Virus record (IMG/VR): IMGVR_UViG_3300025000_000107 | Coordinates: 1-61,011 of that record | Source: a virus | Strand: one strand, 5' to 3' | DNA length: 61,011 nt | In this document: piece by piece, positions 33,206 to 56,533 of the stretch | Position numbering within the stretch: the stretch's first letter is position 1 | How the letters are laid out: each line of letters starts with the position of its first letter | Translations under genes and position numbers: made by a program | The notes under the pieces: generated by a model | The model's database searches: none | What the model was told of the DNA's origin: nothing | What the model saw: only the letters and a program-made list of their open reading frames with translations

Positions 33206-33216
33206 CTATATAGTTA
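33206..33216 (-). promoter_or_regulatory. Promoter core overlapping the hydrolase stop codon
   Basis: Read on the minus strand, ACTATATAGACTATAG matches the 55873 promoter after the first base. The TAG of ACTATATAG (33206-33214) is the stop codon of the hydrolase gene. It points to the basic protein gene at 33159. Confidence 0.5.
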
Positions 33217-42343: not shown

Positions 42344-42837
42344 AACTCTCCGTTATCGTCGTCGTTATCTTCAGTCTCTGTCTCATCAGAGAACTCATCA
42401 GTTCCATCAACTACATCGAACTCATCAGCATTCGGATCACCACCAGTACCACCTGCATAAGCTACTAAGTCTACGATCTGGATAGCCTGAAGGTCAGCAC
42501 TCAACCCCTTCTTACCTTTATACTCCCAGGCATAAGGAGCAAACTGTACATTGACGATACTCCCATTACCTATAATACCATCGAAGGTGTTCTTCCCTGC
42601 ATCTACTACTCTGGGTGGTGGGTTCTTTCCGATAACCTCTTTACCCTTCTTCTTATCTACGTTACGTTTGAACTTGTACTCATAGACATCATCATCGTTC
42701 CGCTTTACCTTCAGCCCTATACCCTTCAGCTTCTTAGCCTCAGCATCTGACAGGAGAAGAGTTACCCTCCAGCAAGGATCGAACTTAGTATCAGGCTGTT
42801 TGGTGTAACTCCACATTGCGATTCCAGTAGTCTTCAT
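42340..42837 (-). CDS. Single-stranded DNA-binding protein (T7 gp2.5-like)
   Basis: A 165-residue protein with an OB-fold-like core (about 1-120; WRVTLLLSDAEAKKLKGIGL, GNGSIVNVQFAPYAWEYKGK) and a strongly acidic C-terminal tail (about 135-165, DETETEDNDDDNGEF) ending in phenylalanine. The acidic tail with terminal F is the hallmark of T7 gp2.5-type SSBs, which use it to contact polymerase and helicase. Confidence 0.85.
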   Translation of the reverse strand: MKTTGIAMWSYTKQPDTKFDPCWRVTLLLSDAEAKKLKGIGLKVKRNDDDVYEYKFKRNVDKKKGKEVIGKNPPPRVVDAGKNTFDGIIGNGSIVNVQFAPYAWEYKGKKGLSADLQAIQIVDLVAYAGGTGGDPNADEFDVVDGTDEFSDETETEDNDDDNGEF

Positions 42838-43361
42838 ATTGTAACTCCCATGTTTGATCTGATAGTCTTGATGATACGCTTCTTCATATAGCCAGTTTTC
42901 CTAATCGTTACTCCGGCTGCCTTAGCAACCTCAGCTTTAGGATCGCTGTGGACAATAAGCCCATAATAAATGATTCTATCCTGTGTATCTGTGGGTGCTA
43001 GTCCCTCTATGATCCCTTCGTTATCATCACCCTCCTCGTAGATATCCTCAGTTCTAGGCTCATCATCTGTCTCAACAACATTACAGAAAGGGACCTCCAT
43101 CTCTTCTTGTTTCTGTATCTTCTTTAAGAACCATATCATCTCATAGCGTATAGCATTAGATGCATAAGTATTAAACTGGAAGCCACGATCAGGGTCAAAC
43201 TTCAGTGATGCCTTACGTAAGGACACCATACCTATACCCATGAGATCATCTCGGTGGCTAGAGTACCTTCTGTTTCTTTCTCGTGATAGGAACTCATCTA
43301 CTACCACCTCAACCATTCCGAAGAATGTCTCACATAAGTCCTTACGTTCTTGATCTGTCAT
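42834..43361 (-). CDS. Sigma factor-like protein (sigma-70 region 2)
   Basis: A 175-residue protein. Residues 35-85 follow sigma region 2: DDLMGIGMVSLRKASLKFDP followed by DRGFQFNTYASNAIRYEMIW. This is the core-binding helix and the -10 recognition part. The C-terminal third has a helix-turn-helix-like KAEVAKAAGVTIRKTGYMKK suited to region 4. phiEco32 carries a comparable phage sigma factor. The protein could direct host RNA polymerase to the CACTATATAG sites. That link is inference. Confidence 0.72.
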   Translation of the reverse strand: MTDQERKDLCETFFGMVEVVVDEFLSRERNRRYSSHRDDLMGIGMVSLRKASLKFDPDRGFQFNTYASNAIRYEMIWFLKKIQKQEEMEVPFCNVVETDDEPRTEDIYEEGDDNEGIIEGLAPTDTQDRIIYYGLIVHSDPKAEVAKAAGVTIRKTGYMKKRIIKTIRSNMGVTI

Positions 43362-43495
43362 ATCTTCCTCTTAATTGTTAGCAACTTCCATATCTTAGGG
43401 CTCCTTAAGATATACGCATGATCAACCTCATTGTATGGTACTGTAATGATCTCTCTCCTACTACTACTGAGTGTATTAACTACGAGGAGGAACAT
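43358..43495 (-). CDS. KR-tail microprotein 1
   Basis: A 45-residue protein whose stop overlaps the sigma gene's ATG (ATGA). It starts MFLLVVNT and ends KLLTIKRKI, so it has the hydrophobic start and basic-hydrophobic tail shared by the family. The AAGAGG that codes for K-R also serves as the sigma gene's ribosome site. Confidence 0.68.
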   Translation of the reverse strand: MFLLVVNTLSSSRREIITVPYNEVDHAYILRSPKIWKLLTIKRKI

Positions 43496-43497
43496 CT

Positions 43498-43647
43498 TCA
43501 CAGCACCCTCCTCACCCTCAGCACCGCATAGACTTCAGGTCTGTTGTGTACAAACTCCTCTATATCTTTAGACATTGGTTGACCATACATACTTCTATTA
43601 AGTCTATTGTCATATACCCCAACAAACAACATGTACTTAAATTGCAT
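43498..43647 (-). CDS. KR-tail microprotein 2
   Basis: A 49-residue protein (starts MQFKYMLFVGVYDN, ends AVLRVRRVL). It is the first gene after the promoter at 43661-43669. GAGGAGGG near its 3' end forms the ribosome site for the next microgene. Confidence 0.68.
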   Translation of the reverse strand: MQFKYMLFVGVYDNRLNRSMYGQPMSKDIEEFVHNRPEVYAVLRVRRVL

Positions 43648-43660
43648 AGCCTATATTATT

Positions 43661-43669
43661 TATATAGTG
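43661..43669 (-). promoter_or_regulatory. CACTATATA-type promoter before the sigma operon
   Basis: Minus-strand GATACACTATATAAATAATA matches the 64-82 promoter, including the preceding GATA. The G of TATAG is replaced. It lies 14 bases before the first microgene and upstream of the sigma, SSB and exonuclease genes. Confidence 0.55.
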
Positions 43670-43671
43670 TA

Positions 43672-43815
43672 TCATTGTATGAACTCCTTCACCTTTAGGA
43701 TCCTATAAGATTGTAATCCAGATTTAGACTTTAGAAAACGACGACTACCAATATCTGATATATGACAAATTATTTTCCTATTAGTAAATCCTATTATAAA
43801 CAATAGCTTCCTCAA
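43672..43815 (-). CDS. KR-tail microprotein 3 (divergent tail)
   Basis: A 47-residue protein starting at a TTG that overlaps the HNH stop (TTGA), with GGGGAG as ribosome site. It starts MRKLLFIIGFTNRK and ends YRILKVKEFIQ. The L-K-V-K part is kept while the following R is lost. No gene start follows closely, so the tail here is not constrained by a ribosome site. Confidence 0.6.
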   Translation of the reverse strand: MRKLLFIIGFTNRKIICHISDIGSRRFLKSKSGLQSYRILKVKEFIQ

Positions 43816-44282
43816 TGTACATCTCCCCAATTCTTTCCAGATAAGATACCAAGTGTTGATCCTTTCGGATAACCAAAAGATACTAAACACTTTAATCTAT
43901 AACCGATAGATATTAAGAATCTTATATCAATAACCTCATCTTCTACTAATAAAGATCTTGCATTCATTGAACCTTTAGCGCTTCTCCTCCCAGAATTATA
44001 AGAGTGTTTTATATTATCTCCATGAGATAACCACCTAAGATTATCAAGATTATTGTTTAACTTGTTTCCATCTATATGGTCTACATCTGATAGATGATAT
44101 GGGTTTGGTAGGTACACCTCAGCAACCAGCCTATGTATAGCTTTACATACCCTTCTCTTATCTGTATTAATGTTGACAATTAAATACCCTCTCCCATTAT
44201 CATAAGATTTAATAATACCACCAAACTTATTGAAAACTTCTCCATTAGTCGTAACATGATACGAGTAATAGTTCTGATCCAT
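43812..44282 (-). CDS. HNH homing endonuclease (HNH_3/NUMOD-type) after the polymerase gene
   Basis: A 156-residue protein. The N-terminal strand-rich part is typical of NUMOD4-HNH proteins. The nuclease core is AIHRLVAEVYLPNP, then DVDHIDGNKLNNNLDNLRWL. A C-terminal DNA-binding helix region (VIDIRFLISIGYRLKCLVSF) follows. It belongs to a different family from the endonuclease VII-like genes. It has its own promoter at 44341 and lies just downstream of the DNA polymerase gene, a common homing target. Confidence 0.88.
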   Translation of the reverse strand: MDQNYYSYHVTTNGEVFNKFGGIIKSYDNGRGYLIVNINTDKRRVCKAIHRLVAEVYLPNPYHLSDVDHIDGNKLNNNLDNLRWLSHGDNIKHSYNSGRRSAKGSMNARSLLVEDEVIDIRFLISIGYRLKCLVSFGYPKGSTLGILSGKNWGDVH

Positions 44283-44302
44283 AGTGCACCACCATTAGGT
44301 TT

Positions 44303-44350
44303 AGGTTATAACTCTTAAGATTATCCCTACGAACTATAACCTATATAGTG
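44303..44350 (-). promoter_or_regulatory. CACTATATAG promoter and hairpin before the HNH gene
   Basis: Minus-strand CATACACTATATAGG (core at 44341-44350). Immediately after the core, AGGTTATA (44335-44342) and TATAACCT (44303-44310 on the minus strand) form an eight-base stem in the leader of the HNH gene. The promoter lies just after the polymerase stop. Confidence 0.6.
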
Positions 44351-44356
44351 TATGGA

Positions 44357-45442
44357 TCAGTGAACGTCAGCCCACGTCATACCTATCTTCACATCAGCAT
44401 CTATAGGAGTAATTAGATTCAACTGGTCTTGAACCATATTAGCACCAAGTTTAATTATACGAGATGCTTCTTCTGCATGATCAGGAAGACACCTATAACC
44501 AGCCTCATCGTGGTATTCCAGCATTTGTCTGCAGTAGATTCCTGAACTTTCAATCATCCTATTTGTATTGATTAACCACATCTTGAATATAAGTGCAGCT
44601 GTACTTTGAATAGCTGTATTAAGAAGCTTATACTCTTGACGTACTTGAATTCTTCTACCATCGAGACCTACAATATACTTATTCTTCTTAAAGAATTTAG
44701 TAAGATAATCTACAATCATCTTGACTCCTAGATTACCAGACCAAAAGTTATCAATATATATCTCAGCTTGTTCTTCAGAGCACCCTAATATTCTCGAAAG
44801 CTTAGGTGCTCTAGCTCCGTAGAAGATCGCATATTGAAAACTTTTCGCAGTGTTTCTAGTACTTTGGATGAGGTCAGCGTTGTACTGATGAAGATCAGGA
44901 ACAGAGTTTATCACATCCCAATAGGCACCACCATCAAACAGTGAGGCCCAGTGTGCTGTGACCCTAGCCTCAATAGCCTTGAGGTCAGCACCTATCATTA
45001 CATAAGGTGCCCACACCCTGAAGAGGGACCGCATCTCAGTACCGTAGATTACTTTAGGGTCAGCCTTTGGTACATTACAGACAGCACCACTATGTGTAGT
45101 CCTGCCAGTAGGTGTAGCACATGGCATCCCTTCAGCAGATACCCTACCATCACTCCTTACCTTAGAAAGGATACCCTTATTCTCAGGGTCCTTTATGTTC
45201 TCGATGGTTCTCCTTCTATGTACAAGGACGTTCCTTCGAGCTACTAGTTGGCCTGTCTTACCTTGAATAGAGTCGAATGAATCCTCAGTTAGCTTAGGTG
45301 ATGTAGGTTCCTTAGTCTTCTTGTTATAGTTGAACTGAGTAGGAACCCAACCAACAGATAGTAAGAATGCTTTTACTTGTTCATGACTATTGAGGTTGAT
45401 TCGTTCGTACTTGATCTTACAATAAGGTCCTCGTATATTCAA
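44357..45442 (-). CDS. DNA polymerase, polymerase domain only (T7 gp5-like, family A)
   Basis: This 361-residue protein covers the palm and fingers of a T7-type polymerase: motif A GADLKAIEAR (D153), motif B RNTAKSFQYAIFYG (R196, K200, Y208) and motif C YHDEAG (H311, D312, E313). The start of the fragment (GPYCKIKYERIN, then LLSVGWVPTQFN) matches T7 gp5 just after the exonuclease-linked hinge. The exonuclease is encoded separately upstream. The best start is TTG at 45442 with GGTGG before it. The catalytic set is complete. Confidence 0.9.
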   Translation of the reverse strand: MNIRGPYCKIKYERINLNSHEQVKAFLLSVGWVPTQFNYNKKTKEPTSPKLTEDSFDSIQGKTGQLVARRNVLVHRRRTIENIKDPENKGILSKVRSDGRVSAEGMPCATPTGRTTHSGAVCNVPKADPKVIYGTEMRSLFRVWAPYVMIGADLKAIEARVTAHWASLFDGGAYWDVINSVPDLHQYNADLIQSTRNTAKSFQYAIFYGARAPKLSRILGCSEEQAEIYIDNFWSGNLGVKMIVDYLTKFFKKNKYIVGLDGRRIQVRQEYKLLNTAIQSTAALIFKMWLINTNRMIESSGIYCRQMLEYHDEAGYRCLPDHAEEASRIIKLGANMVQDQLNLITPIDADVKIGMTWADVH

Positions 45443-45446
45443 TTCA

Positions 45447-45608
45447 TTACCACCAAAAATGTAGTAAACATTTATCTATCTTGTTATCCTTTAAGAAAGC
45501 TATAAGATTAGGACAACCATCTTCATACTCTTCGTAATCCTCCTCTAACTCTCCCTCATCATTAATGAACCAATCGTCCTCATCATACACCTCAATCCAA
45601 AAGTTCAC
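45447..45608 (-). CDS. Small acidic protein between polymerase halves
   Basis: A 53-residue protein starting at GTG that overlaps the previous stop (GTGA). It is strongly acidic (DDWFINDEGELEEDYEEYED) and ends LLHFWW. It lacks the KR tail, unlike its three upstream neighbours. It ends five bases before the polymerase TTG start. It could be a linker subunit between the two polymerase parts. Confidence 0.6.
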   Translation of the reverse strand: MNFWIEVYDEDDWFINDEGELEEDYEEYEDGCPNLIAFLKDNKIDKCLLHFWW

Positions 45609-45736
45609 ACCACCCTCTTAACCTTTAGTCCTATGAACGGGTCGATGTAGTAGTCCTTACAGCTACCTGTAGTTATACTTCTCGAAGAACTATCAGGGCT
45701 ACCTCTCCACATTATGATAAAGAACCACACACTCAT
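45605..45736 (-). CDS. KR-tail microprotein 4
   Basis: A 43-residue protein (starts MSVWFFIIMWRGSPD, ends IGLKVKRVV). Both ends overlap the neighbouring genes. It is part of the insert inside the split polymerase. Confidence 0.68.
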   Translation of the reverse strand: MSVWFFIIMWRGSPDSSSRSITTGSCKDYYIDPFIGLKVKRVV

Positions 45737-45942
45737 ATAGCCCTCTTTAGTTTTAGTGCCACACAATGCATCTCTGGATGGATGTAGTATCCTCCACCCC
45801 TGAAGTATCCTCTGGTTCTAGTACCTAGATTAGAGAGTGAGTGGATTGGGTAGACGCTTTTGCACATAGGATTCATATCTGATAAGAAATAAACACCATC
45901 CTTTAATCCCTCAACCTTATCTCGTATCATATAGAATATCAT
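45733..45942 (-). CDS. KR-tail microprotein 5
   Basis: A 69-residue protein (starts MIFYMIRDKVEGL, ends CVALKLKRAI). Its ATG overlaps the previous stop (ATGA), as does its stop with the next ATG. The middle is rich in glycine and tyrosine (RTRGYFRGGGYYIHP). Confidence 0.7.
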   Translation of the reverse strand: MIFYMIRDKVEGLKDGVYFLSDMNPMCKSVYPIHSLSNLGTRTRGYFRGGGYYIHPEMHCVALKLKRAI

Positions 45943-46049
45943 AGTCTCCTCTTAATCGTTAGCTTTCTCCACCTAGAGTACTCATCATCGTACAAACTAG
46001 CCGTGCTTACTGAGTATATATTCCTAGTGAAATCCTGATCACCGTACAT
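45939..46049 (-). CDS. KR-tail microprotein 6 (shortest member)
   Basis: A 36-residue protein (starts MYGDQDFTRNIYSV, ends RWRKLTIKRRL). It starts inside the last codons of the exonuclease gene and overlaps the next gene by four bases. It is the first member of the insert between the two polymerase parts. Confidence 0.65.
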   Translation of the reverse strand: MYGDQDFTRNIYSVSTASLYDDEYSRWRKLTIKRRL

Positions 46050-46776
46050 CATCAGAAGGTGAAACGATTTCCTCATTAGCTATCCACTTCTTAGTGGCCT
46101 CATTATATGTTCCATCCTTCTTGAATGGTAGAGTCCCTATATCCAAGTTACCAACACCGATCACCCTCATAGGCATCACCTCATACAGCAGCTTATCCAA
46201 CTCAGCGATCTCAGTATCCATCCTGACTATCAGATCTTCAGCCAGCCCAACATCTATATCGACACCCTCGATCTCTTGAGCTGCACGATACATAGCGAAG
46301 TCTTGCTCTATCTCAAGAGACCTGATCCAGTTCCATGATTGACAGTACCTTTCTACTAGGTACTCATAGGTCATTACATTTATCTCTACATCCTCTGAGC
46401 ACCTGAACAACATATCCTCAGAGAACACTGACCAATCCTCATGTACTGGTTTGCTTCTCCTGAACTGCTCTCCGTATGACTCAAGAGAATGACCCCCGAA
46501 TCTCTCGGGATTAAATAGCTTGGACATACAGAGAGTATCCTTCAGCTTCTTATGAGTGAAGGATGGATACAACTTCTTGATAGCTGGTATATCAAACCCG
46601 CAGATGTTGTGTCCTACTATCTGCTCGGCACTACTAAGTAAGGCAAGGCCTTCCTCTATCTGATGTGGTCTGAACTTGAACACCTCTCTAGTCTTCAAGT
46701 CCTTAGCCACTATACAGTGTATGGTGTGGATATCATACAACAATCCGTTACCTTCTAAATCGAAAACGAGTCGCAT
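46039..46776 (-). CDS. DNA polymerase 3'-5' exonuclease domain, separate gene (T7 gp5 N-part)
   Basis: A 245-residue protein matching the proofreading part of T7 gp5: MRLVFDLEGNGL (first DxE), IVGHNICGFDIPAIKK (second), then a FGGHSLESYG and CSEDVEINVMTYEYL (third, with D in SEDV). Then comes the start of the polymerase thumb (SLEIEQDFAMYRAAQEIEG). It ends ...SPSDDVR, just where the polymerase fragment resumes with ..IRGPYC. A complete enzyme would therefore need both products. The ATG overlaps a preceding 11-codon frame (46776-46811) in the TAATG style. Confidence 0.9.
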   Translation of the reverse strand: MRLVFDLEGNGLLYDIHTIHCIVAKDLKTREVFKFRPHQIEEGLALLSSAEQIVGHNICGFDIPAIKKLYPSFTHKKLKDTLCMSKLFNPERFGGHSLESYGEQFRRSKPVHEDWSVFSEDMLFRCSEDVEINVMTYEYLVERYCQSWNWIRSLEIEQDFAMYRAAQEIEGVDIDVGLAEDLIVRMDTEIAELDKLLYEVMPMRVIGVGNLDIGTLPFKKDGTYNEATKKWIANEEIVSPSDDVR

Positions 46777-46822
46777 TATTTGTTGATACTTATTAAGTCT
46801 TTTAGAACCATGCTTAACTCCT

Positions 46823-46960
46823 CTATAGACGCCTCTTCACCTTCAGTGGATGGAAGCCTTCACGTGCTTTCGGAGCTGTTGGTTGTTGATAGATTCTAAT
46901 CTGTCTCATCATTGACCAGTGCCAATCATAGTACCCATACAGCATCGTGAAGTGTATCAT
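46823..46960 (-). CDS. KR-tail microprotein 7
   Basis: A 45-residue protein (starts MIHFTMLYGYYDWHW, ends HPLKVKRRL). It overlaps the upstream microgene by four bases. Twelve bases downstream an 11-codon frame (46776-46811) leads into the exonuclease gene. Confidence 0.68.
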   Translation of the reverse strand: MIHFTMLYGYYDWHWSMMRQIRIYQQPTAPKAREGFHPLKVKRRL

Positions 46961-47085
46961 AGCACCCTCTTAATCTTCAGCTCTACAAGTTTCTTCTTCA
47001 AGATAAACCCACCATGAGCTAAACCTAGACGCTGCTTTATAGGTTCTCCATGCCCAAGGTACATATGTGATTGTACATAGAACAT
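46957..47085 (-). CDS. KR-tail microprotein 8
   Basis: A 42-residue protein (starts MFYVQSHMYLGHGE, ends LVELKIKRVL). GGGTAGGG lies before the ATG. It lies 60 bases after the primase-helicase gene. The spacer holds a 12-codon frame (MTSFKFWFCNKP) of doubtful status. Confidence 0.68.
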   Translation of the reverse strand: MFYVQSHMYLGHGEPIKQRLGLAHGGFILKKKLVELKIKRVL

Positions 47086-47143
47086 CCCTACCCATCCCGA
47101 TGGGTTTAGAGTATCACGTCAGGGCTTATTACAAAACCAGAAC

Positions 47144-48766
47144 TTAAAACTCGTCATCACAAAACTCCTCTTCAAGTTTACCTGACTCTCTGTTGTACCT
47201 CAATGGGATGTGACCAGTGTTACCACCTAATCTATCCTTGATGATAGATAACTTACACTTGTTCCTATCCTCTATAGACTCAGCTAACTGATCCCTACTC
47301 AGACCCCATAGTGCAGTAGAATACTTCCACTGTGCCCTACTACCAGAGAACTGTGATCCATATACCTCACCACCAGCACCATGATCCTTACCACCTGAAG
47401 GGTTATTAAGATGGTTAGCATGGAAGAATGTCAGTCCTTGCTCAACTCGAAACCTTCGCATATCACGCATCACCTTACCGAGTTCTTGATTACCTTCAGA
47501 TGCTGAGAGGTGCTCAACCAATGCAGATAAAGGATCAATAAAGAATATCCTGATACCCTTACTGGCGAAGTATCTGATATTATCCTTAACCTCTTCCCAA
47601 TCTTCAGTGAGTCCATCATAGAACTGCACCTTCCCATCGAGCAGCTCACCTATCCTACGTGCTTCATCTATGTCATACACACAGTCAGGTTTGTGGATAG
47701 GCTTGTTCATGATACCACCTATCAGGTGCTTCAATGCACCCTTAGCCTTCTCCTCGATATCAAAGACTGCAATGTTCTTATTGTGTACGAACATCAAGTG
47801 TTGTTGTATCTGCCTTACGAGGGTTGACTTGCCACCACCAGGAGCACCACCTATACCTATGATCTCCCCTTCATCTTCCTTAAGTCCATACGTGAGTTTC
47901 GTGAGTCTCTCAAAGGGATAAGACAAACCCCACGGAACAGGCTTAATAGTATCGTCCAGAATATCACATACAGCAACAATATTTGAAGGACGGTACTCAC
48001 GGGCGTTGAAGTAAGCATTGATGAACTCCTTCTGCTTTCCCTTTACCAGCATATCGCTGGAGTCTTTCTCTGAGAGGACTAAGACTCTAGCCTTCTCTCC
48101 AATGACGGGTGCATACTTAGCTACCGCTGCTCTACCAGCAGCATCCATGTCAGTAGCGATGATCACTTCCTCGAAGCCCTTCAGGAACTCGAGGTTCTCT
48201 GTGACTGTAGCCAATGAGGACTCCTCTCCTCTTGGCAACGATACTACCGCTGGCTCTACCTCTGGATACCTAGTCTTCAGCATCTCATAGGCAGCACACA
48301 TATCCTCCTCACCACCTACAATCAGCAGCTTCTTTGCAGTACGGGGGCAGCAGAACTGCCCACTATAATCCGGAACCTTCCCCTTCTGTTCTCCTATACT
48401 CGAGAACTTTTTAGGCAAGGATCTTTTCTTATACCCAATGAACTTACCCTGATGTGTCTCAGGATAATAGATCGCTACTGGTACACCTGTAGCTTCTGAT
48501 AACTCAGTCCTGATCTTGAAGTGTTTGTGTGTCTCAGCACTGACAAGCCTTTCAGGGTTACCATAAAACGGGAGGCTCTTTACTTCATCTATCTCCATCT
48601 CCCCTCCATTAGTAGGTGGTTTACATAACTCTCCGTCCCTTTCATAATAAGGAGGATGATAAGGTTTCAGACATGCTCGTGTTACACCATCCTTCATCAA
48701 CCATAAGTGATCTTTAGTTTTATCTCTACCAAGAGAAAAACATATAGGGCATTGGAGATTACTCAT
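47144..48766 (-). CDS. Primase-helicase (T7 gp4-like)
   Basis: This 540-residue protein combines primase and replicative helicase. An N-terminal zinc site (CPIC 6-9, H20, C32) leads to a TOPRIM fold (LLIVGGEEDM with E153, ATDMDAAG with D206/D208). The RecA-like helicase has Walker A GGAPGGGKST near 306-315, Walker B IFFIDPL and the loop TFFHANHLNNPSGGKDHG. It is the same size as T7 gp4. Its ATG lies inside the last codons of the upstream HNH gene (eight-base overlap). Confidence 0.95.
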   Translation of the reverse strand: MSNLQCPICFSLGRDKTKDHLWLMKDGVTRACLKPYHPPYYERDGELCKPPTNGGEMEIDEVKSLPFYGNPERLVSAETHKHFKIRTELSEATGVPVAIYYPETHQGKFIGYKKRSLPKKFSSIGEQKGKVPDYSGQFCCPRTAKKLLIVGGEEDMCAAYEMLKTRYPEVEPAVVSLPRGEESSLATVTENLEFLKGFEEVIIATDMDAAGRAAVAKYAPVIGEKARVLVLSEKDSSDMLVKGKQKEFINAYFNAREYRPSNIVAVCDILDDTIKPVPWGLSYPFERLTKLTYGLKEDEGEIIGIGGAPGGGKSTLVRQIQQHLMFVHNKNIAVFDIEEKAKGALKHLIGGIMNKPIHKPDCVYDIDEARRIGELLDGKVQFYDGLTEDWEEVKDNIRYFASKGIRIFFIDPLSALVEHLSASEGNQELGKVMRDMRRFRVEQGLTFFHANHLNNPSGGKDHGAGGEVYGSQFSGSRAQWKYSTALWGLSRDQLAESIEDRNKCKLSIIKDRLGGNTGHIPLRYNRESGKLEEEFCDDEF

Positions 48767-49388
48767 ATGATTCCAAATACTTAGCAGCCTTAATGCAAGT
48801 ATCTTTAGAGTCTTTTAAGAATCCTATACCAGAGTTACAAGAATTGCATAACAACCCTCGGGCTTTTCCAGTATCATGGTCATGATCTATGGAGAACATC
48901 TCAATAAAATCTATACCACATATAGCACATTTTCCAACTTGAGAAATTATCATATCCTCTAACTCCTGCTCAGTTATATTGAAGACCTTAAGTCTTCGTC
49001 TGAAGTTAGTCTCGTTATAGCCTTCTGTACCCTTATAAGATTCTCTATTTCTTATTATCCTATCTGCATTCACCTTAACATAGGTAGCATCGTACTCTCT
49101 TTTCCATTCTACATAACCAGGATCTGACCTCTTCCAAAGTGAGTGACATTTCTTAGAACAAAACTTAGTCCTTTTAGGACCCCTCTTAGCTTGTACAATA
49201 ACCTCTCCACATATACAACATATCCCAGTTGTAGCTGTCTTGCATAGATCAACACACTCCTCTCCAGCTCTTCTAGCAAACCCAGCCTCTTCCTTGTCCT
49301 TATAAGACCCTAGGTTCACACAACCAAGACTAGATCTTATAGACGCTTTCCATCTTTTCCTTGCCTTATTCCAATGAACACCTTTCAT
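48759..49388 (-). CDS. AP2-domain / endonuclease VII-like homing endonuclease
   Basis: A 209-residue protein. An AP2-type DNA-binding domain at 1-45 (GVHWNKARKRWKASIRSSLG, then LGSYKDKEEA) precedes a zinc finger (CCICGEVIV...CSKKC) and the endonuclease VII-like domain (GKCAICG, FSIDHDHDTGKARGLLCNSC). The second of two close ATGs (49388) has the better GGAGG spacing. It has its own promoter at 49431. Its end overlaps the start of the primase-helicase gene, a typical homing neighbour. Confidence 0.88.
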   Translation of the reverse strand: MKGVHWNKARKRWKASIRSSLGCVNLGSYKDKEEAGFARRAGEECVDLCKTATTGICCICGEVIVQAKRGPKRTKFCSKKCHSLWKRSDPGYVEWKREYDATYVKVNADRIIRNRESYKGTEGYNETNFRRRLKVFNITEQELEDMIISQVGKCAICGIDFIEMFSIDHDHDTGKARGLLCNSCNSGIGFLKDSKDTCIKAAKYLESYE

Positions 49389-49430
49389 AATCATCCCTCC
49401 AGTTGAATTAAAATATAAACCCTTTAAGGT

Positions 49431-49440
49431 CTATATAGTG
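49431..49440 (-). promoter_or_regulatory. CACTATATAG promoter before the AP2-HNH gene
   Basis: Exact minus-strand CACTATATAGACC, preceded by GTGAT. The leader to the ATG (about 45 bases, with TTTTAATT and GGAGG before ATTATG) resembles the leaders of the HNH genes at 55931 and 57715. Confidence 0.62.
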
Positions 49441-49470
49441 ATCACGTTACTGAAGTGATAATTATAGGGA

Positions 49471-49515
49471 TCAGTTACACATAAACTCCCCACACTCAGG
49501 GCAAGCTTTATTCAT
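49471..49515 (-). CDS. Possible 14-residue zinc-knuckle frame
   Basis: The frame MNKACPECGEFMCN starts inside the end of the neighbouring microgene with GAGGAGG as ribosome site. It carries one CxxC plus a third cysteine. It could be a remnant of a zinc-ribbon gene. Its small size leaves it uncertain. Confidence 0.3.
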   Translation of the reverse strand: MNKACPECGEFMCN

Positions 49516-49642
49516 ACCTCCTCTTCACCTTTAACCTGATAGAGCAATTAAGACCATAATATATAGTAGATATCTTTCTGTTATTTGTTGGGAACCACCA
49601 ATTAGAACCCGGCTTATTATGTAGGATATAGAAGCACCTCAT
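49508..49642 (-). CDS. KR-tail microprotein 9
   Basis: A 44-residue protein (starts MRCFYILHNKPGSNWWFP, ends IRLKVKRRYE). It is the last full member of a chain of five overlapping microgenes. Confidence 0.68.
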   Translation of the reverse strand: MRCFYILHNKPGSNWWFPTNNRKISTIYYGLNCSIRLKVKRRYE

Positions 49643-49785
49643 AGTTTCCTCTTAATCCTTAAGATAATATACAAACTCTGCTCTCCTTCTATAACCTCCT
49701 CCTCTATCATAACCCTTCTTTGGTTACACTCCCACCACCTAGTAGGGTCTGATGCACACCATAAGATAACCCAAAGGTTTGTCAT
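49639..49785 (-). CDS. KR-tail microprotein 10
   Basis: A 48-residue protein (starts MTNLWVILWCASDPTRWW, ends YIILRIKRKL). The tail is almost the same as that of the zinc-ribbon member at 51192 (YIILTIKRKL). It overlaps its neighbours by four bases on each side. Confidence 0.7.
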   Translation of the reverse strand: MTNLWVILWCASDPTRWWECNQRRVMIEEEVIEGEQSLYIILRIKRKL

Positions 49786-49931
49786 ACCCTTCTCTTTATA
49801 TGTAGTATGATGTATATCGGAACAGAGTATCCTAGTGGATAAGGCCTCTCCTTGTATGCCCTAAGACTTCTATTAAAACTAGGATCCCAATACGTGGGTT
49901 CCTCCTTTGAGTATAGTATCAGGTATCTCAC
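49782..49931 (-). CDS. KR-tail microprotein 11
   Basis: A 49-residue protein starting at a GTG that overlaps the previous stop, with AGGAGGG as ribosome site. It starts MRYLILYSKEEPTYWDP and ends YIILHIKRRV. Confidence 0.68.
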   Translation of the reverse strand: MRYLILYSKEEPTYWDPSFNRSLRAYKERPYPLGYSVPIYIILHIKRRV

Positions 49932-50074
49932 AAAACCCTCCTAACCATTAGGTATATATAGAGGAACTTGTCCGTATCAGTATGAGTGCATGCTTTATCA
50001 GCACACAACCTCCTCTGATTCCCCTCATACCAGAAGCTAGCATCATCTGTACAATGAAGTATTACGTACACCAT
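49928..50074 (-). CDS. KR-tail microprotein 12
   Basis: A 48-residue protein (starts MVYVILHCTDDASFWYEG, ends YIYLMVRRVL). It starts 32 bases inside the upstream gene, right at the point where that gene encodes its own K-V-K-R-V. Confidence 0.65.
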   Translation of the reverse strand: MVYVILHCTDDASFWYEGNQRRLCADKACTHTDTDKFLYIYLMVRRVL

Positions 50075-50252
50075 ATATCACCCTCTTCACTTTCAGTCTT
50101 TTCATATCCCTAACACCACCTCTCATACTCCACGTAAATGAGATAGCTGTGTCATGGTGTTGATCACCATCCCTTATCCTGTAGAACGACCCAACCTTAT
50201 CGTTTAACTCAGGACACTCAGGTCGTATAGAGGTTCTGATAAAGAATACCAT
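50043..50252 (-). CDS. KR-tail microprotein 13 with C-terminal extension
   Basis: A 69-residue protein (starts MVFFIRTSIRPECP). The RLKVKRVI motif lies at 51-58 and is followed by 11 extra residues (YGVRNTSLYR), probably because a stop codon was lost. It starts at the stop of the glutamine amidotransferase-like gene. Confidence 0.68.
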   Translation of the reverse strand: MVFFIRTSIRPECPELNDKVGSFYRIRDGDQHHDTAISFTWSMRGGVRDMKRLKVKRVIYGVRNTSLYR

Positions 50253-51190
50253 TAGTTATACATCCCTTGATAGTCCTGCCACGCTTCCTCCTGTTCTGCT
50301 ATGGCAGCTACTTTCTTAGCAGCTATAGCTTTCTCTTTGTTCAACTGGATGTTAGCTTCGGTAAGGTACTTGGCCATGGTTGTCTTGTTCTTATTGCTTA
50401 CAGCACCAGCCTTCTCAAGAGACTTCTTACACTCTTCACAAACCAACATGATAGGTGCATCCTTATCCTCATAGGCATGCATGTCCTTGATCTGAAAGGG
50501 TTGGTTGCAATACTCGCAGTCCTCCCTAGTGAAAGCATTGATAGACCATGCTGCTGTGTTGACTGTTGAATTCGGAAGGGTCCTGGGCTGTGCATTGTAG
50601 TGACCCTGATATCCACCGTACTTAGTGGTGTATACAGGACGTTCCTTGTAGGAGTCATTGCTCATCCAGATACCTTCATGCCAGTGACCCTTCTTCTCGT
50701 TGAAGATGAATCCCTCACCACTGATGCTCAAGACTGCCAGCTTAGATGCACCGATGAATTCCTCTATCAGCATAGCGATTGCAGGATTATACAACCACCC
50801 TTCAGGCATCTCACGGAGGACCTCTTCATTAAACATTCTTGTATCAGACTTATCAGCGTGGCGAGATACACCACCGATGATTCCATTGTGAATGAACACA
50901 GTGTCCTCGTCTATCATAAATGGGTGGCAGTTGGCTATATCTTTCTGACCATGCGTCTTGATCCTGAAGTGTACAAGGAATGCAGAGTCAGGGGCTATAC
51001 GAGTTGCCCTCTCATACTGCTTATAGAATGGTGCGAACTCCATACTCTTGTACATCTTAATACGTTTGACTCCCAGATGGTCCGTGTTAATGTACGCAAA
51101 GCCAGCTCCATCCGGGTTGCTATTGAAGCAAGTTCTGAGGGTTGCTTCAGTGAGTACTCTTCCTGCTGGTTTGAATATCGCAATACACAT
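50252..51190 (-). CDS. Class II glutamine amidotransferase-like protein with C-terminal zinc ribbon
   Basis: A 312-residue protein. The N-terminal Cys2 (MCIAIF) would be the nucleophile that frees ammonia from glutamine. FLVHFRIKTHG, NCHPFM, FIHNGIIGG and SDTRMFNEEVL are the usual GAT-II/Ntn-hydrolase signatures. The C-terminal part has CEYC and CEEC pairs (about 225-260), then a helix. In this place, next to an amidoligase gene, it could supply ammonia or cleave gamma-glutamyl bonds. Metabolic biosynthesis enzymes of this fold normally carry a synthase domain, which is absent here. Confidence 0.8.
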   Translation of the reverse strand: MCIAIFKPAGRVLTEATLRTCFNSNPDGAGFAYINTDHLGVKRIKMYKSMEFAPFYKQYERATRIAPDSAFLVHFRIKTHGQKDIANCHPFMIDEDTVFIHNGIIGGVSRHADKSDTRMFNEEVLREMPEGWLYNPAIAMLIEEFIGASKLAVLSISGEGFIFNEKKGHWHEGIWMSNDSYKERPVYTTKYGGYQGHYNAQPRTLPNSTVNTAAWSINAFTREDCEYCNQPFQIKDMHAYEDKDAPIMLVCEECKKSLEKAGAVSNKNKTTMAKYLTEANIQLNKEKAIAAKKVAAIAEQEEAWQDYQGMYN

Positions 51191-51191
51191 A

Positions 51192-51359
51192 TTATAGTTT
51201 CCTTTTTATTGTAAGAATTATATAGAAGTTACTGGTACTCTTTCCCGGTAAGCATGTGGGGCAGCAGAATACAAACCAACTAGGCCTATTGTCATAGCAC
51301 CTGAAGTACATGCTGGTATGCTCTTCAACCTTTGCCCCACAATTATGGCATTTAATCAC
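51192..51359 (-). CDS. Zinc-ribbon KR-tail microprotein 14
   Basis: A 55-residue protein starting at a GTG overlapping the amidoligase stop (GTGA). The N-terminal zinc ribbon (IKCHNCGAKVEEH, FCCPTCLPG) is followed by the family tail FYIILTIKRKL. It joins the microprotein tail to a zinc-binding body and sits exactly between the amidoligase and amidotransferase genes. Confidence 0.7.
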   Translation of the reverse strand: MIKCHNCGAKVEEHTSMYFRCYDNRPSWFVFCCPTCLPGKSTSNFYIILTIKRKL

Positions 51360-53032
51360 TCAACAAATTTAGCCACAAGTACAGACCCGTTCGGGTAAGT
51401 CTTGCTGTTGTGTGCCATAAACTCCCGGAACTTATCGAGATCTTTCGAGTGTGAGATAGGTGCCTCACGTTCGAAGGAGATCAGTGCATGAAGGAACTCC
51501 ACCTTGCTTCTCAGTTCGAAGTCAGTAACACAACCAGCAAACAGTCGGAACTCTACTGTTGCTTTATTTGTCAGGTTAACCATAGCCCGACGCTCAGTGT
51601 TGCCTGACTTACTATCCTTCAGGTGCCTTGAGGGTTTAGTCTTCAGCCCCGCACAGTAACCATTGAATGAACGACCAGCTACATAGGTGGTGAAGCTCGG
51701 ACAGCTATGAAGGAAGTTGATCACCTTATACAGATGAACTTCCGACTGGAAACCATCACGACCTACATGGATGTGAAGACCACAGCTGGAATCCTTCTTG
51801 AGTTTACCAGGAAGGAGAGGTCCGAGGTCAAGCTGATGGAAGTAGAGGAGAGACATGGGCTGAGATACAACCTCATACCCATAGCCATCAATACTGCCAT
51901 CACTCTTAGCTACCAGTACCGTAGGATCGTAGCTCTTATACAGGTTCTTCAACCCATTGTTACGGTTGCCATCATCCCTACCAAAGGTACACTCATTCTC
52001 AAAGCCAAAGAACACATTACCACGCTTGATCTCTTTGTCCTTGATATAGTTGTAGAAGATCTTCGGCTTGTGACTGTAGCTGTAGATACCCATACTATTA
52101 CATACCCTACAGTGACTCTCATGATCTCGGATCATACCACAAGAACACTTGTTGTTGATATAAACCCTCTTACATGTCTGACAATACTCTCCACTACCAG
52201 CAAACAGGGAGGAGCAGTTAGCACACTCCTTCTTGTCAGCACAACTGGGGCATACACAGTGGACCTTGGACGCACCCTTAACGAACGTCTTCATGGAGGA
52301 CTTGTAGTTGTTACCACAAGCATCACACTCCATTACGTTCTTGTTTTTACAAGACTGACACATGTACTCTGAGTGATTGTCACCATTCTCATCCATGAAT
52401 ACTACAGACTTGATGTTCGGTTCCTTCTTGTGGCACACTCCGCACATCTTGAAACCGTTCCAACACTTTTCACAATACTTTTTAGGATGCTCCTGCCCTT
52501 CAGTGCAAGAGTATTTCTTACCGCAATGGACACACTCCTCAATCTCATACAGTTTGAAGTGTCGCTTCTTCTCCTCGAAGCACTCGGAGCACACCTGATT
52601 ACCGTACTTACGGAAGATGCCAGCTCTACGCATACCCTCAAGGCTGGTGTTCAGTACGATGGTGTCCTTCCTCTTATAGGTGTTGCAGCACCCACACATC
52701 TTATACTTCGTGGAGATGCACGAGGTGCATATCATCTCACCGTTGATATCCCTGAGTGCAGCTTCGGGTTTCTGCTGACCACAACACTCGCAGGTTGCAA
52801 ATGAGGCCATACATTCACGGCAGTAGTGCTCACCATTACCTGTATGAGTAGTCTCGGATGCAAGCACAGCTTTCTGACAACCAGAGCATACCTTCAGCAG
52901 GGAGTAACATCGTTCACAGTAGGGACCGATCTCGATATCAGGGTAGTCTTCATTGAACAGGACTACCCGAAAGTTAGGATCGGTGATTTCAGTACCACAG
53001 TTGAGGCAAGGACAAGGGGTAGCAGTAGGCAT
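51356..53032 (-). CDS. Amidoligase (COOH-NH2 ligase) with a long zinc-knuckle array
   Basis: A 558-residue protein. Residues 7-315 hold about 18 CxxC or related knuckles (for example CLNC, CERC, CSGC, CREC, CECC), probably nine zinc sites. Residues 335-558 match the amidoligase family, which joins a carboxyl to an amine using ATP: FGFENECTF, KSDGSIDGYGYEVVSQP, CGLHIHVG and NKATVEFRLF supply the metal and ATP ligands seen in glutamine synthetase/GCS-like folds. The ATG at 53032 with AAGGAAA is preferred over an upstream start at 53074. The amidotransferase gene lies directly downstream. Confidence 0.82.
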   Translation of the reverse strand: MPTATPCPCLNCGTEITDPNFRVVLFNEDYPDIEIGPYCERCYSLLKVCSGCQKAVLASETTHTGNGEHYCRECMASFATCECCGQQKPEAALRDINGEMICTSCISTKYKMCGCCNTYKRKDTIVLNTSLEGMRRAGIFRKYGNQVCSECFEEKKRHFKLYEIEECVHCGKKYSCTEGQEHPKKYCEKCWNGFKMCGVCHKKEPNIKSVVFMDENGDNHSEYMCQSCKNKNVMECDACGNNYKSSMKTFVKGASKVHCVCPSCADKKECANCSSLFAGSGEYCQTCKRVYINNKCSCGMIRDHESHCRVCNSMGIYSYSHKPKIFYNYIKDKEIKRGNVFFGFENECTFGRDDGNRNNGLKNLYKSYDPTVLVAKSDGSIDGYGYEVVSQPMSLLYFHQLDLGPLLPGKLKKDSSCGLHIHVGRDGFQSEVHLYKVINFLHSCPSFTTYVAGRSFNGYCAGLKTKPSRHLKDSKSGNTERRAMVNLTNKATVEFRLFAGCVTDFELRSKVEFLHALISFEREAPISHSKDLDKFREFMAHNSKTYPNGSVLVAKFVE

Positions 53033-53118
53033 AATTTTGTTTTCCTTCAATAAATGATTTTTGTTTTTCCACACACTGTCCTCTCAACCACATGAGAGTA
53101 TGTTCCTAGTGTGTAGTG

Positions 53119-53343
53119 TTATAAAACTTTCTTTACTTTTAATCTTATAGACTGATCAAATCTTATACCCCAATCACCATCTCTATCTGAGTTGATGTCG
53201 AAGTAGTCTTCATACACTTGTGTTCGATCTGTAGGAATAATACTCCTAGTCAAATGATTCATATCATATACCCATGACCATACACCCCAATAGTCAGCAT
53301 CATCATCATCTCGGCAATAGTGATTCCCTATGAAAAATTCCAT
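53119..53343 (-). CDS. KR-tail microprotein 15
   Basis: A 74-residue protein (starts MEFFIGNHYCRDDDDADYWG, ends IRLKVKKVL). The ATG at 53343 overlaps the previous stop. No gene starts close downstream, and the AGG codon has become AAA, yet the L-K-V-K pattern is kept. This argues for selection on the protein tail. Confidence 0.7.
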   Translation of the reverse strand: MEFFIGNHYCRDDDDADYWGVWSWVYDMNHLTRSIIPTDRTQVYEDYFDINSDRDGDWGIRFDQSIRLKVKKVL

Positions 53344-53528
53344 CAAATTATCCTGGCAAGTCTACCCCTATCGGTGACAGCATTAGAGGACTTGAGAAGA
53401 TCAACAGTCTCTCTATCTATCAGGTACAAAGAACCCTGTACTCCACCTACAGAGTCAGTACCCAACTTAGGAGCACCTTCAACTCTCCTCTCGGAGAACA
53501 CAACATAAGTACAATCCTTACAACCCAT
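53343..53528 (-). CDS. Small protein in the microgene chain, unknown
   Basis: A 61-residue protein (starts MGCKDCTYVVFSERR, ends RLARII). It has a CxxC but not the KR tail. It overlaps its upstream and downstream neighbours. AGGAGGG in the upstream gene acts as its ribosome site. Confidence 0.62.
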   Translation of the reverse strand: MGCKDCTYVVFSERRVEGAPKLGTDSVGGVQGSLYLIDRETVDLLKSSNAVTDRGRLARII

Positions 53529-53733
53529 TATAATCCCTCCTAATTTTGAATACCTTAAAGCGTCTCATATCATCTAGACGTTCTTCATGACAAGCTTTTC
53601 CTACCCCATCATCCTCCCATGAATAATACCCATAATGTTTTATTCCGCTATCCTCTACATTGATCATACAAAAACAGTTCCAGAAAGGCTTAGCCGTTGG
53701 GTATACAGGGGTGAAGATACCTATCTCCCACAT
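53518..53733 (-). CDS. KR-tail microprotein 16 with C-terminal extension
   Basis: A 71-residue protein (starts MWEIGIFTPVYPTAKPFW). FKVFKIRR precedes a short extra end (DYNGL). ATG 53733 has GGAG at a good distance; a TTG precedes it. It is the first gene of the chain that leads into the amidoligase. Confidence 0.6.
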   Translation of the reverse strand: MWEIGIFTPVYPTAKPFWNCFCMINVEDSGIKHYGYYSWEDDGVGKACHEERLDDMRRFKVFKIRRDYNGL

Positions 53734-53744
53734 CAACTAATCTC

Positions 53745-53755
53745 CTACTATATAG
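53745..53755 (+). promoter_or_regulatory. Variant promoter (TACTATATAG) before the HNH gene at 53807
   Basis: CTACTATATAG differs from the consensus by one base at the start of the core. It lies about 50 bases before a right-going endonuclease gene that is surrounded by left-going genes, matching the distance at the other endonuclease cassettes. Confidence 0.45.
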
Positions 53756-53806
53756 TCCTGTAGAAGCGTAAATCTACAGTCCCATAATTCAACAAAAGGT
53801 ATCATA

Positions 53807-54283
53807 ATGAAAGTCCTCACTGAAGAACAGAAGTTAAATAACAAAGAGTACCAAAAAGCTTATCGTCTTGCAAATAAAGATAGGCTTAAAGAGTATGACC
53901 ACTTCAGATACCACCGAGATAAAGATGTCTACAATGGTAAGCGTAGACAACATAGAGCAGAAAACCCTGAATTATATGCTGAAGCTTATAAAGATAACAA
54001 AGATGTTAGAAATTACAGAACAGTTAAGTATAGAAGAAAGAATTCTTATGGAACAGATGAGCACACAATTCAGAAGATGATGGACGAGCAAAGAGGATGT
54101 TGTAAGATATGCGGAGACTCTTTAGTTCATCCAGGTTCTTTAAAATCCTTCTCAATAGATCATTGTCATACTACAGGATCTGTGAGAGGTTTACTTTGCT
54201 CTAGATGCAATCTAACATTAGGTGGAGTACACGACAGCGTGAATCTCCTTCAATCTATGATAGATTACCTTGAGGCGAGTTGA
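53807..54283 (+). CDS. HNH endonuclease, endonuclease VII-like, opposite to its neighbours
   Basis: A 158-residue protein. The N-terminus is K/N/R-rich with loose repeats (NNKEYQKAYRLANKDRLKEY). The C-terminal nuclease has GCCKICGDSLVHPGS, then FSIDHCHTTGSVRGLLCSRC. It is oriented right-going inside the left-going arm, with its own probable promoter. Its last 19 bases overlap the 3' end of the ATP-grasp gene. Confidence 0.88.
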   Translation: MKVLTEEQKLNNKEYQKAYRLANKDRLKEYDHFRYHRDKDVYNGKRRQHRAENPELYAEAYKDNKDVRNYRTVKYRRKNSYGTDEHTIQKMMDEQRGCCKICGDSLVHPGSLKSFSIDHCHTTGSVRGLLCSRCNLTLGGVHDSVNLLQSMIDYLEAS

Positions 54284-55053
54284 ATAATAGCGTTAGTGTA
54301 GGCTTCTAATGTCGCTCCTTCTAAACCTGGAGCGGTATTAGCCTCAAATATCTTAGGGCTATTAAGACTGAGGGCGATATCCAAAGCGGCGAACTGTAAA
54401 CCTAAAGCAGCTACAGCAGCTATAGCAGCGTCCCTTGCACTGTCAGGGATGGTGACTCCTTCACGGGCAAAGACCCATCCGTTCCCATGTGATCTCACAT
54501 CGTTGCTGTAGGTGATACCATCATCTGCCATACGTTCCTCACTCATCTTCTTCTTCTGAGCAAAGGAGATCATCTCCCCATTGAAGATGTGAAGACGGAC
54601 CTCACGACGACGAGGACATTTAGCCGTGTAAAGTGGGGCAGTTACGAGATCATCTACCCTGTTAGCCACCACGACACCTCTGCCCTGGCTTGATCTGGTA
54701 AGTGTCCGGCAGTACACAGTAATACCAGACTCCACCCAAGCTTTTGCTACATCAAGATCGGAAGTAAACCCAGGTATGTTGTCTGACATACCAGAATCCC
54801 TCAGTTTTTCGAATGTCTTCGTCTTGTCTGAGGCGATGATTACAGCAGTAGGGTCGTTCAACATGGTAAACTCTGGTCGAACAGCCTTCCGAGTGTGAGA
54901 CCCCCAGTTGAGAATGAGATGACTAGCTGAACCACGATAGGAGCTGTTGTCATACTTCATCCGCTTGACGTTGGCTCCACGAGCACGGAGAGTAGCAATT
55001 AGACTTGTGATAGAGTCACTCGGTCCATATGGGTTGATTCGAATTACTTTCAT
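54265..55053 (-). CDS. ATP-grasp ligase-like protein
   Basis: A 262-residue protein. Features of ATP-grasp enzymes are the lysine-containing DKTKTFEKLRDSG, a phosphate-binding loop YCRTLTRSSQGRGVVV, a central REVRLHIFNGEMISFAQKKK, and the terminal metal-binding FEANTAPGLEG (the E-x-N motif). Such proteins join a carboxyl group to an amine or thiol. With an amidoligase and an amidotransferase-like gene close by, a peptide- or amino-acid-conjugating pathway is suggested. The substrate is unknown. GGAGGTG precedes the ATG. Confidence 0.8.
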   Translation of the reverse strand: MKVIRINPYGPSDSITSLIATLRARGANVKRMKYDNSSYRGSASHLILNWGSHTRKAVRPEFTMLNDPTAVIIASDKTKTFEKLRDSGMSDNIPGFTSDLDVAKAWVESGITVYCRTLTRSSQGRGVVVANRVDDLVTAPLYTAKCPRRREVRLHIFNGEMISFAQKKKMSEERMADDGITYSNDVRSHGNGWVFAREGVTIPDSARDAAIAAVAALGLQFAALDIALSLNSPKIFEANTAPGLEGATLEAYTNAIIQLASR

Positions 55054-55882: not shown

Positions 55883-55930
55883 ACTATAAGTTGTAGAAAA
55901 TATTAATATCAATTAAATATGGAGATTATT

Positions 55931-56533
55931 ATGGGTTGGAGCAAAGAGGAAGCTAATGAGTATGCTAAGAAATATTATCAAGAGCATAAAGAAGAGATCG
56001 CTTTGAAGGCTAGAGAGTATAGAGAGAAGAATAGGGATGAGGTAAAAGAATATGCTAAGATTTGTAGTAAAAAGAATAAAGATAAAAGATGTTTAACTTC
56101 TAAAGAGTGGTATTATAATAATAAAGACGAGGCGTTATTAAAAAACAAGGAGTGGCGTGATAATAATAAAGATCATAGAGCTTTATATTCTAAAAATTAT
56201 AGAGAAGATAATAGAGAGAGGTTGTCAGAATATTTTAAAGATTGGAGATCACAACCCTATACAGCCTATAGGATTAGGATTGGTATTTTAAGAAACAAAT
56301 ACGGCGTAACTGAAGAATTGTTGTCAAACATGCTCAATGATCAGAGAGGTTGTTGTAAAACATGCGGTGATAGTCTGATATATTCAGACTCTAAAACAAA
56401 CTATCATATAGATCATTGTCATACTACAGGAACTGTAAGAGGTCTTTTGTGTCATAGCTGCAATGTTTCCCTAGGGCATCTAAAGGAAAATATAGACACC
56501 CTAAGGAATATGATTGCTTATTTGGAAAGTTGA
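55931..56533 (+). CDS. HNH endonuclease, endonuclease VII-like, with basic repeats
   Basis: A 200-residue protein. It starts MGWSKEEANEYAKKYYQEHK, then loose repeats of about 14-20 residues rich in K, N, E and Y. The nuclease part has GCCKTCGDSLIYSDS, YHIDHCHTTGTVRGLLCHSC. GGAG precedes the ATG at 55931. An earlier in-frame ATG (55919) overlaps the ribosome site and is unlikely. It is right-going amid left-going genes. The last 16 bases overlap the 3' end of the gene at 56518. Confidence 0.88.
   Translation: MGWSKEEANEYAKKYYQEHKEEIALKAREYREKNRDEVKEYAKICSKKNKDKRCLTSKEWYYNNKDEALLKNKEWRDNNKDHRALYSKNYREDNRERLSEYFKDWRSQPYTAYRIRIGILRNKYGVTEELLSNMLNDQRGCCKTCGDSLIYSDSKTNYHIDHCHTTGTVRGLLCHSCNVSLGHLKENIDTLRNMIAYLES

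Follow-up and report, generated by a model that had tools for sequence, protein, structure and literature searches.

The virus record analysed here (IMG/VR record IMGVR_UViG_3300025000_000107, whose full 61,011 bp we call the window) carries on its minus strand, between about 40.6 and 55 kb, a replication module with endonuclease I, and tiny open reading frames (ORFs) are present in almost all junctions between the core genes of this module. A preliminary description, made from the sequence alone, had proposed that 16 of these ORFs form a single protein family recognizable by a lysine-arginine (KR) tail of the form L-x-[VIL]-[KR]-[RK]-x-[LVI]. All 16 were found on the minus strand among the replication genes at the coordinates it gave, and 11 of the 16 end in the ATGA or GTGA overlap that it had reported. 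Its count holds in that all 16 are real genes, but a 17th member had been overlooked; likewise, its reading frames were right but two of its starts were not the best available, that of the gene at 45605 being better placed at 45736 and that of the gene at 43672 at 43803 (TTG). The tiny genes, called below by their lower coordinate, are as follows (lengths in amino acids, aa), the last line giving one example of the junction element with which this study is chiefly concerned.

43358..43501, minus strand: tiny gene, 47 aa, alternative start 43495, tail LLTIKRKI, in which AAGAGG is the ribosome-binding site of the sigma-like gene starting at 43361
43498..43647, minus strand: tiny gene, 49 aa, tail LRVRRVL
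43672..43803, minus strand: tiny gene, 43 aa from TTG 43803, drifted tail LKVKEFIQ (AAGGAG), directly after an HNH gene
45447..45608, minus strand: the 17th member (MNFWIEVYDEDDW...), N-terminal plan kept, tail lost, weak body match (p 0.02)
45605..45736, minus strand: tiny gene, 43 aa, tail LKVKRVV, body profile member
45733..45942, minus strand: tiny gene, 69 aa, tail LKLKRAI
45939..46076, minus strand: tiny gene, 45 aa, tail LTIKRRL, overlapping the end of the polA exonuclease half
46823..46960, minus strand: tiny gene, 45 aa, tail LKVKRRL, orthologue L003:4676-4816, body profile member
46957..47085, minus strand: tiny gene, 42 aa, tail LKIKRVL
49508..49642, minus strand: tiny gene, 44 aa, drifted tail LKVKRRYE, orthologue L003:1898-2026, body profile member
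49639..49785, minus strand: tiny gene, 48 aa, tail LRIKRKL, orthologue L003:1758-1901, body profile member
49782..49931, minus strand: tiny gene, 49 aa, GTG start, tail LHIKRRV, body profile member
49928..50074, minus strand: tiny gene, 48 aa, tail LMVRRVL, body similar to that of 49639 (E 7e-6), body profile member
50043..50252, minus strand: tiny gene, 69 aa, LKVKRVI joint followed by about 10 more codons, 32-base overlap with the next gene
51192..51359, minus strand: tiny gene, 55 aa, zinc-ribbon-like body (CxxC...CxxC) unrelated to the others but with the same joint, tail LTIKRKL leading into the glutamine amidotransferase-like (GATase) gene 50252-51190
53119..53343, minus strand: tiny gene, 74 aa, tail LKVKKVL, degraded Shine-Dalgarno sequence (AAGAAAG), no start close behind
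53518..53733, minus strand: tiny gene, 71 aa, drifted tail FKIRRDYNGL, whose AGGAGG serves a start at 53528
49639..49674, minus strand: example of the joint element, the last ~36 nucleotides (nt) of a gene, with L-x-V strand codons, the AAG AGG Shine-Dalgarno sequence and the NTGA stop/start

The strict motif, [LIVMF]x[VIL][KR][RK]x[LVI] followed by a stop, ends 12 of the 41 minus-strand ORFs of 30-110 aa in the region, compared with none of the 44 small ORFs on its opposite strand, none of 184 ORFs elsewhere on the minus strand and none of 177 plus-strand ORFs; 0.025 occurrences are expected under an order-3 Markov null. The tails of the remaining four listed genes (43672, 49508, 50043 and 53518) have drifted from it. 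At the level of DNA, the K-R codons in the window are AAG AGG followed by NNN NTA TGA, which places a Shine-Dalgarno sequence just upstream of the ATG in the ATGA overlap, and a following start stands at exactly -4 in 59 of 128 collected genes. Arginine codons in the tails are biased to AGG relative to those in the bodies (p 1e-7), and substitutions between orthologues at the two K-R codons are A<->G exchanges in 15 of 17 cases, compared with 30 of 83 over the 21 nt before them (p 9e-5). The proportion of nonsynonymous change (pN) is 0.22 in the last four codons, 0.17 in the body and 0.09 in L-x-V, whose codons form the most conserved stretch of the protein with ordinary synonymous change. In an AlphaFold2 model of the 49639 protein, strands are predicted at residues 4-8, 23-26 and 39-43, and the KR tail lies outside them.

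Relatives of the window, which are IMG/VR loci designated here by L numbers, carry arrays in the same junctions: L002, L003 and L005 (85-89% helicase identity), L013, L032-L034, L004, L006, L115 and L036. The preliminary description had set beforehand, as a test of its family, whether the same tail would recur in related phages; close relatives do have it, while the distant ones end in KE, KRKE, KRR or EEY (LKVKE in L006, LKRKE in L115, LKRR in L004, LEEY in L036), and in these tails AAGGAG, GAGGAG and similar sequences serve the next start. The tail is thus uniform within each phage and different between lineages. Because of the pN values, the A<->G and AGG biases and these lineage-specific tails, we read the end of each gene in two parts: L-x-V is a feature of the protein, corresponding to the third and last strand of the model, and K-R is mainly the in-frame Shine-Dalgarno sequence of the next gene, which usually overlaps by NTGA. 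The KR tail consequently loses its standing as the signature of a protein family, being the ribosome site of the next gene read in frame, borne by unrelated bodies and differing between lineages.

The same element has the properties of a joint. When unrelated genes from a single genome are compared, their DNA identity stays at background (~0.26) until 36 nt before the stop, is 0.4-0.7 over the last ~36 nt in KR lineages and returns to background immediately past the stop. L002 and L003 are otherwise nearly identical here, yet L003 has an extra 191-bp gene that entered inside the tail element, and another gene has been swapped between two conserved tails; between L003 and L005 two genes were lost, leaving one tail where L003 has three, and alignments of these two phages that end in the arrays do so within 44 nt of a tiny-gene stop. 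Promoters at the joints did not exceed shuffle level, and the six joints folded as RNA did no better than shuffles (best z -1.8). An unsupervised test for uniform tails in about 110 loci picked out this clade alone, and an exact-pattern scan for the joint in IMG/VR gave already known relatives only. A genome scan for the polymerase half gave three distant polymerases only, and a DNA megablast against phages gave no match. Upstream of the helicase, L119 has three genes of 90-108 aa (L119:5523-6533) with a common end like ERKIAVMYKRFENR, a repeated set that perhaps represents a different joint or a domain family.

When tails were cut before the conserved leucine and each body was scored against shuffles, six of the 12 short members (45605, 46823, 49508, 49639, 49782 and 49928) matched the profile of the others, lying above all or nearly all shuffles (combined p 6e-8), compared with p 0.87 for control small ORFs of LUZ24-like and MEP402 phages; the other six, including the zinc-ribbon-like 51192, gave no match to the profile of the other tail-free bodies. 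The idea of one family of 16 therefore survives for half of the short members only. The closest paralogues are adjacent genes (body E 1e-10 to 7e-6), which indicates tandem duplication, so that the duplication previously suggested stands for neighbours with significant body similarity and hence for part of the set. An internal [small]-R-x-hydrophobic motif occurs in 25 of 34 proteins, compared with 9.9 in shuffles. The preliminary description knew of no described family with this pattern, and this is supported: Pfam, PHROGs and PADLOC gave no consistent match for 35 short and 12 longer members (PADLOC for the short set only). Weak sequence matches in the PDB to mL53 (E 0.007), uS4c and eL20 were judged to be chance.

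That these are real translated genes is borne out by purifying selection. After removal of the last seven codons, so that tails play no part, 11 orthologues shared by L003 and L005 give a ratio of nonsynonymous to synonymous substitution rates (dN/dS) of 0.25 (bootstrap 0.19-0.34); the ratio is quoted for this pair only because dS is saturated in window/L003 pairs. Neighbouring core genes have values of 0.05-0.10, and the tiny proteins are constrained, yet faster-evolving than the replication proteins. Two tiny genes, L005:8990-9127 and L002:3432-3662, have a frameshift or in-frame stop with the ribosome site in the tail still intact.

We consider it likely that the arrays consist of small, rapidly evolving accessory genes of a phage clade that were duplicated in tandem, are strung between its replication genes and are linked by a junction element that recurs in frame. 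Over the last ~36 nt of each gene this element would comprise a conserved beta strand (x-L-x-V), a purine-rich Shine-Dalgarno sequence read as K-R and the NTGA stop/start, and ribosomes ending one mini-gene would begin again on its successor and on the core gene that follows (the sigma-like factor, GATase, helicase or polymerase half). Recombination between repeated joints would result in duplication, loss and exchange of whole genes, and since every gene brings the same joint, genes could be added, dropped or exchanged with frame and ribosome site intact. A tentative extension, plausible but short of probable, is that the arrays constitute a putatively recombinase-free phage cassette system, in which the tail is at once beta strand, ribosome site and recombination joint for related and unrelated mini-genes, which could come, go or be exchanged at any junction of a replication operon with expression preserved; the tail would be homogenised within a lineage and replaced whole between lineages. 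Most speculative is the function of the proteins, for which the preliminary suggestion of a regulator, inhibitor or peptide substrate found no direct support; they may plausibly be small beta-strand binders made early against host functions and kept diverse as hosts change. Host-interaction proteins are the likeliest guess, and host-directed accessory proteins would fit their size, their turnover between near-identical phages, their paralogy and their place among replication genes.

Several observations weigh against this explanation. The motif is kept in 12 of 13 KR-type genes without a start close behind, of which some, not all, lost their partner to homing-gene insertion, and this retention makes a residual protein-level role of the basic end possible. 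Profile-profile comparison of tail-free tiny proteins detected no significant homology across tail lineages (the window against L006 or L036), and we therefore do not claim a common origin for the bodies of the window, L006 and L036. The structure models are of modest confidence (predicted local distance difference test scores of 70 and 76), and Foldseek with two models gave no match below E 1e-3 among solved or viral folds; the best PDB matches of a 76-aa relative are mostly SH3 domains (E 0.3-1.8, template modelling score ~0.4), a weak hint that we did not use. The clustering of BLAST ends near tails is partly a matter of construction, because the tails are alike.

The genes that keep the motif with no following start are also an argument for a tail that serves the protein, as the family signature of the preliminary description would imply: a basic C-terminal peptide binding nucleic acid or a shared partner, with the overlap with a ribosome site incidental. 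In some of them the codons have drifted (AAAAAG, AAGAAG) with K/R retained, K<->R changes preserve charge and L-x-V is strongly conserved. We nevertheless regard this as unlikely, given that K-E or E-E-Y replaces the basic pair where a relative uses AAGGAG or GAGGAG as its ribosome site, that the last four residues evolve no slower than the body, that unrelated bodies bear the tail and that the predicted model leaves it outside the strands. A minor but appreciable chance attaches to an ordinary phage ORFan region, in which small early genes of unrelated origin came by convergence to share one overlapping ribosome site: no body homology is seen in half of the short members, NTGA overlaps are the commonest prokaryotic spacing (PMC12548453) and LUZ24-like phages too have small ORFs between their polA halves. 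In those small ORFs and in the large genes of the present phage, however, the overlap end codons are varied, whereas the tiny-gene ends are uniform, conserved L-x-V included, and part of the set consists of tandem paralogues.

The enzymes among the arrays, namely the ATP-grasp (54265-55053), Amidoligase_2-like (51356-53074) and GATase (50252-51190) proteins, to which L036 adds GGCT, might suggest that the tiny proteins are substrates of a peptide-modification system. This is very unlikely, and the earlier peptide-substrate idea is weakened with it, as Pseudomonas phages UFV-P2 and tf and phage MEP402 have such enzymes and no such arrays, the loci L107-L109 and L111 likewise have the enzymes alone, and LUZ24-like phages have this enzyme cluster but lack uniform-tail genes; moreover, the arrays span the whole replication module, flanking the helicase, both polA halves and the sigma-like gene as well, and besides the conserved Arg and Leu there is no invariant acceptor residue. 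Position at coupling distance ahead of core genes would also suit spacers or leader peptides that do no more than determine how strongly the core genes are translated, whatever their own sequence. We find this scarcely credible in view of the dN/dS of 0.25 on tail-free bodies and the excess of the internal arginine motif, and such a role would need no series of several genes.

The junction element that we favour, a Shine-Dalgarno joint within coding sequence, can be set beside several known arrangements. The T4 cassettes of Arbiol et al. are reportedly intergenic elements of promoter and stem-loop, whereas the joint in the window is coding and has neither promoter excess nor structure. What it does have in common with T4-type mobile regulatory cassettes is a repeated signal, here the Shine-Dalgarno joint, at which genes are gained, lost and swapped. 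The nearest published idea concerns T4-type phages, in which conserved regulatory signals, translation initiation regions among them, serve as sites of recombination (PMC4177764, citing Arbiol et al. 2010); the likeness to 'mobile regulatory cassettes' and 'semilegitimate' recombination is that short repeated border signals give homology for the shuffling of accessory genes. Unlike T4 cassettes, the joint of the tiny genes is part of the coding sequence, and each phage has a single uniform version of it. The NTGA overlap is not only the commonest but also an efficiently coupled spacing in prokaryotes (PMC12548453); the window shares with it the -4 spacing and the Shine-Dalgarno sequence inside the upstream gene, and differs in having one uniform, lineage-specific coding version on a dozen or more small genes. 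A split polA with small ORFs between the halves, together with an ATP-grasp/amidoligase/GATase cluster, has been described in LUZ24-like and MEP401-type phages (PMC3890496; PMC10580990). These and phiEco32-like phages resemble the window in gene layout and in the small ORFs between polA halves, but the small ORFs there lack a uniform tail and do not match the body profile. Small early proteins of the Pseudomonas phage LUZ24 bind host regulators (PMC4635203), and its early ORFans (Mip/gp4) are alike in being small proteins in a related genome layout; a similar mode of action is a guess only. The tiny proteins had no family match, in searches that did not compare them directly with gp4, and gp4 is not a tandem family.

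If the proposed cassette system exists, these phages would have a means of maintaining, within an essential operon, a shifting repertoire of tiny accessory proteins, with the ribosome site of each successor in the last codons of the cassette. The explanation of a striking 'protein motif' as an RNA signal is a reason for caution wherever families of small overlapping genes are defined by motifs, and uniform terminal codons in consecutive NTGA-overlapping small ORFs offer a search rule for unannotated small-protein arrays. The change of whole tails by lineage also raises the question of concerted evolution of gene joints.

The core genes among which the arrays lie are the following.

42834..43361, minus strand: sigma-70 region 2-like gene, translated behind the tail of the 43358 gene
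44357..45442, minus strand: polymerase half of a split family A DNA polymerase
46039..46776, minus strand: exonuclease half of the split DNA polymerase, with tiny genes between the halves
47144..48766, minus strand: T7-like primase/helicase
50252..51190, minus strand: class II glutamine amidotransferase-like (GATase) gene
51356..53074, minus strand: Amidoligase_2-like protein
54265..55053, minus strand: RimK-like ATP-grasp

The split of polA (44357-46776 in the window) is also found in L002, L003, L005, L006, L013, L036, L115, L116 and L119, and the gene is single in L007 and L126. A group I intron or intein was considered as its cause and rejected: the window has no Rfam match, and each half is a gene of its own, with overlapping tiny ORFs in the space between. 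The ATP-grasp, amidoligase-like and GATase genes (50252-55053) form a phage peptide or cell-wall modification cluster, whose amidoligase-like protein bears a Cys-rich zinc-ribbon extension in the window. At least four free-standing HNH or endonuclease VII-like genes lie near the module (43812-44282, 48759-49394, 53807-54283 and 55919-56533), those at 43812, 48759 and 55919 called by Pfam matches and that at 53807 by eye. Adjoining the endonuclease VII-type gene 48759-49394 is a 14-codon ORF (49471-49515, MNKACPECGEFMCN) that resembles a cut-off helicase start (MSN..CP.C) and is likely the scar of a homing-gene insertion; L005 has a similar remnant of the polymerase start (ATGAATATTCGTGGA) ahead of an inserted HNH-like gene. 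Elsewhere in the window, a plus-strand ORF of 2,529 codons (18772-26361) is unusually long for a 61-kb phage, and 33206-34141 encodes an alpha/beta hydrolase resembling DUF3141 and the PHB depolymerase C-terminus, which is uncommon in phages.

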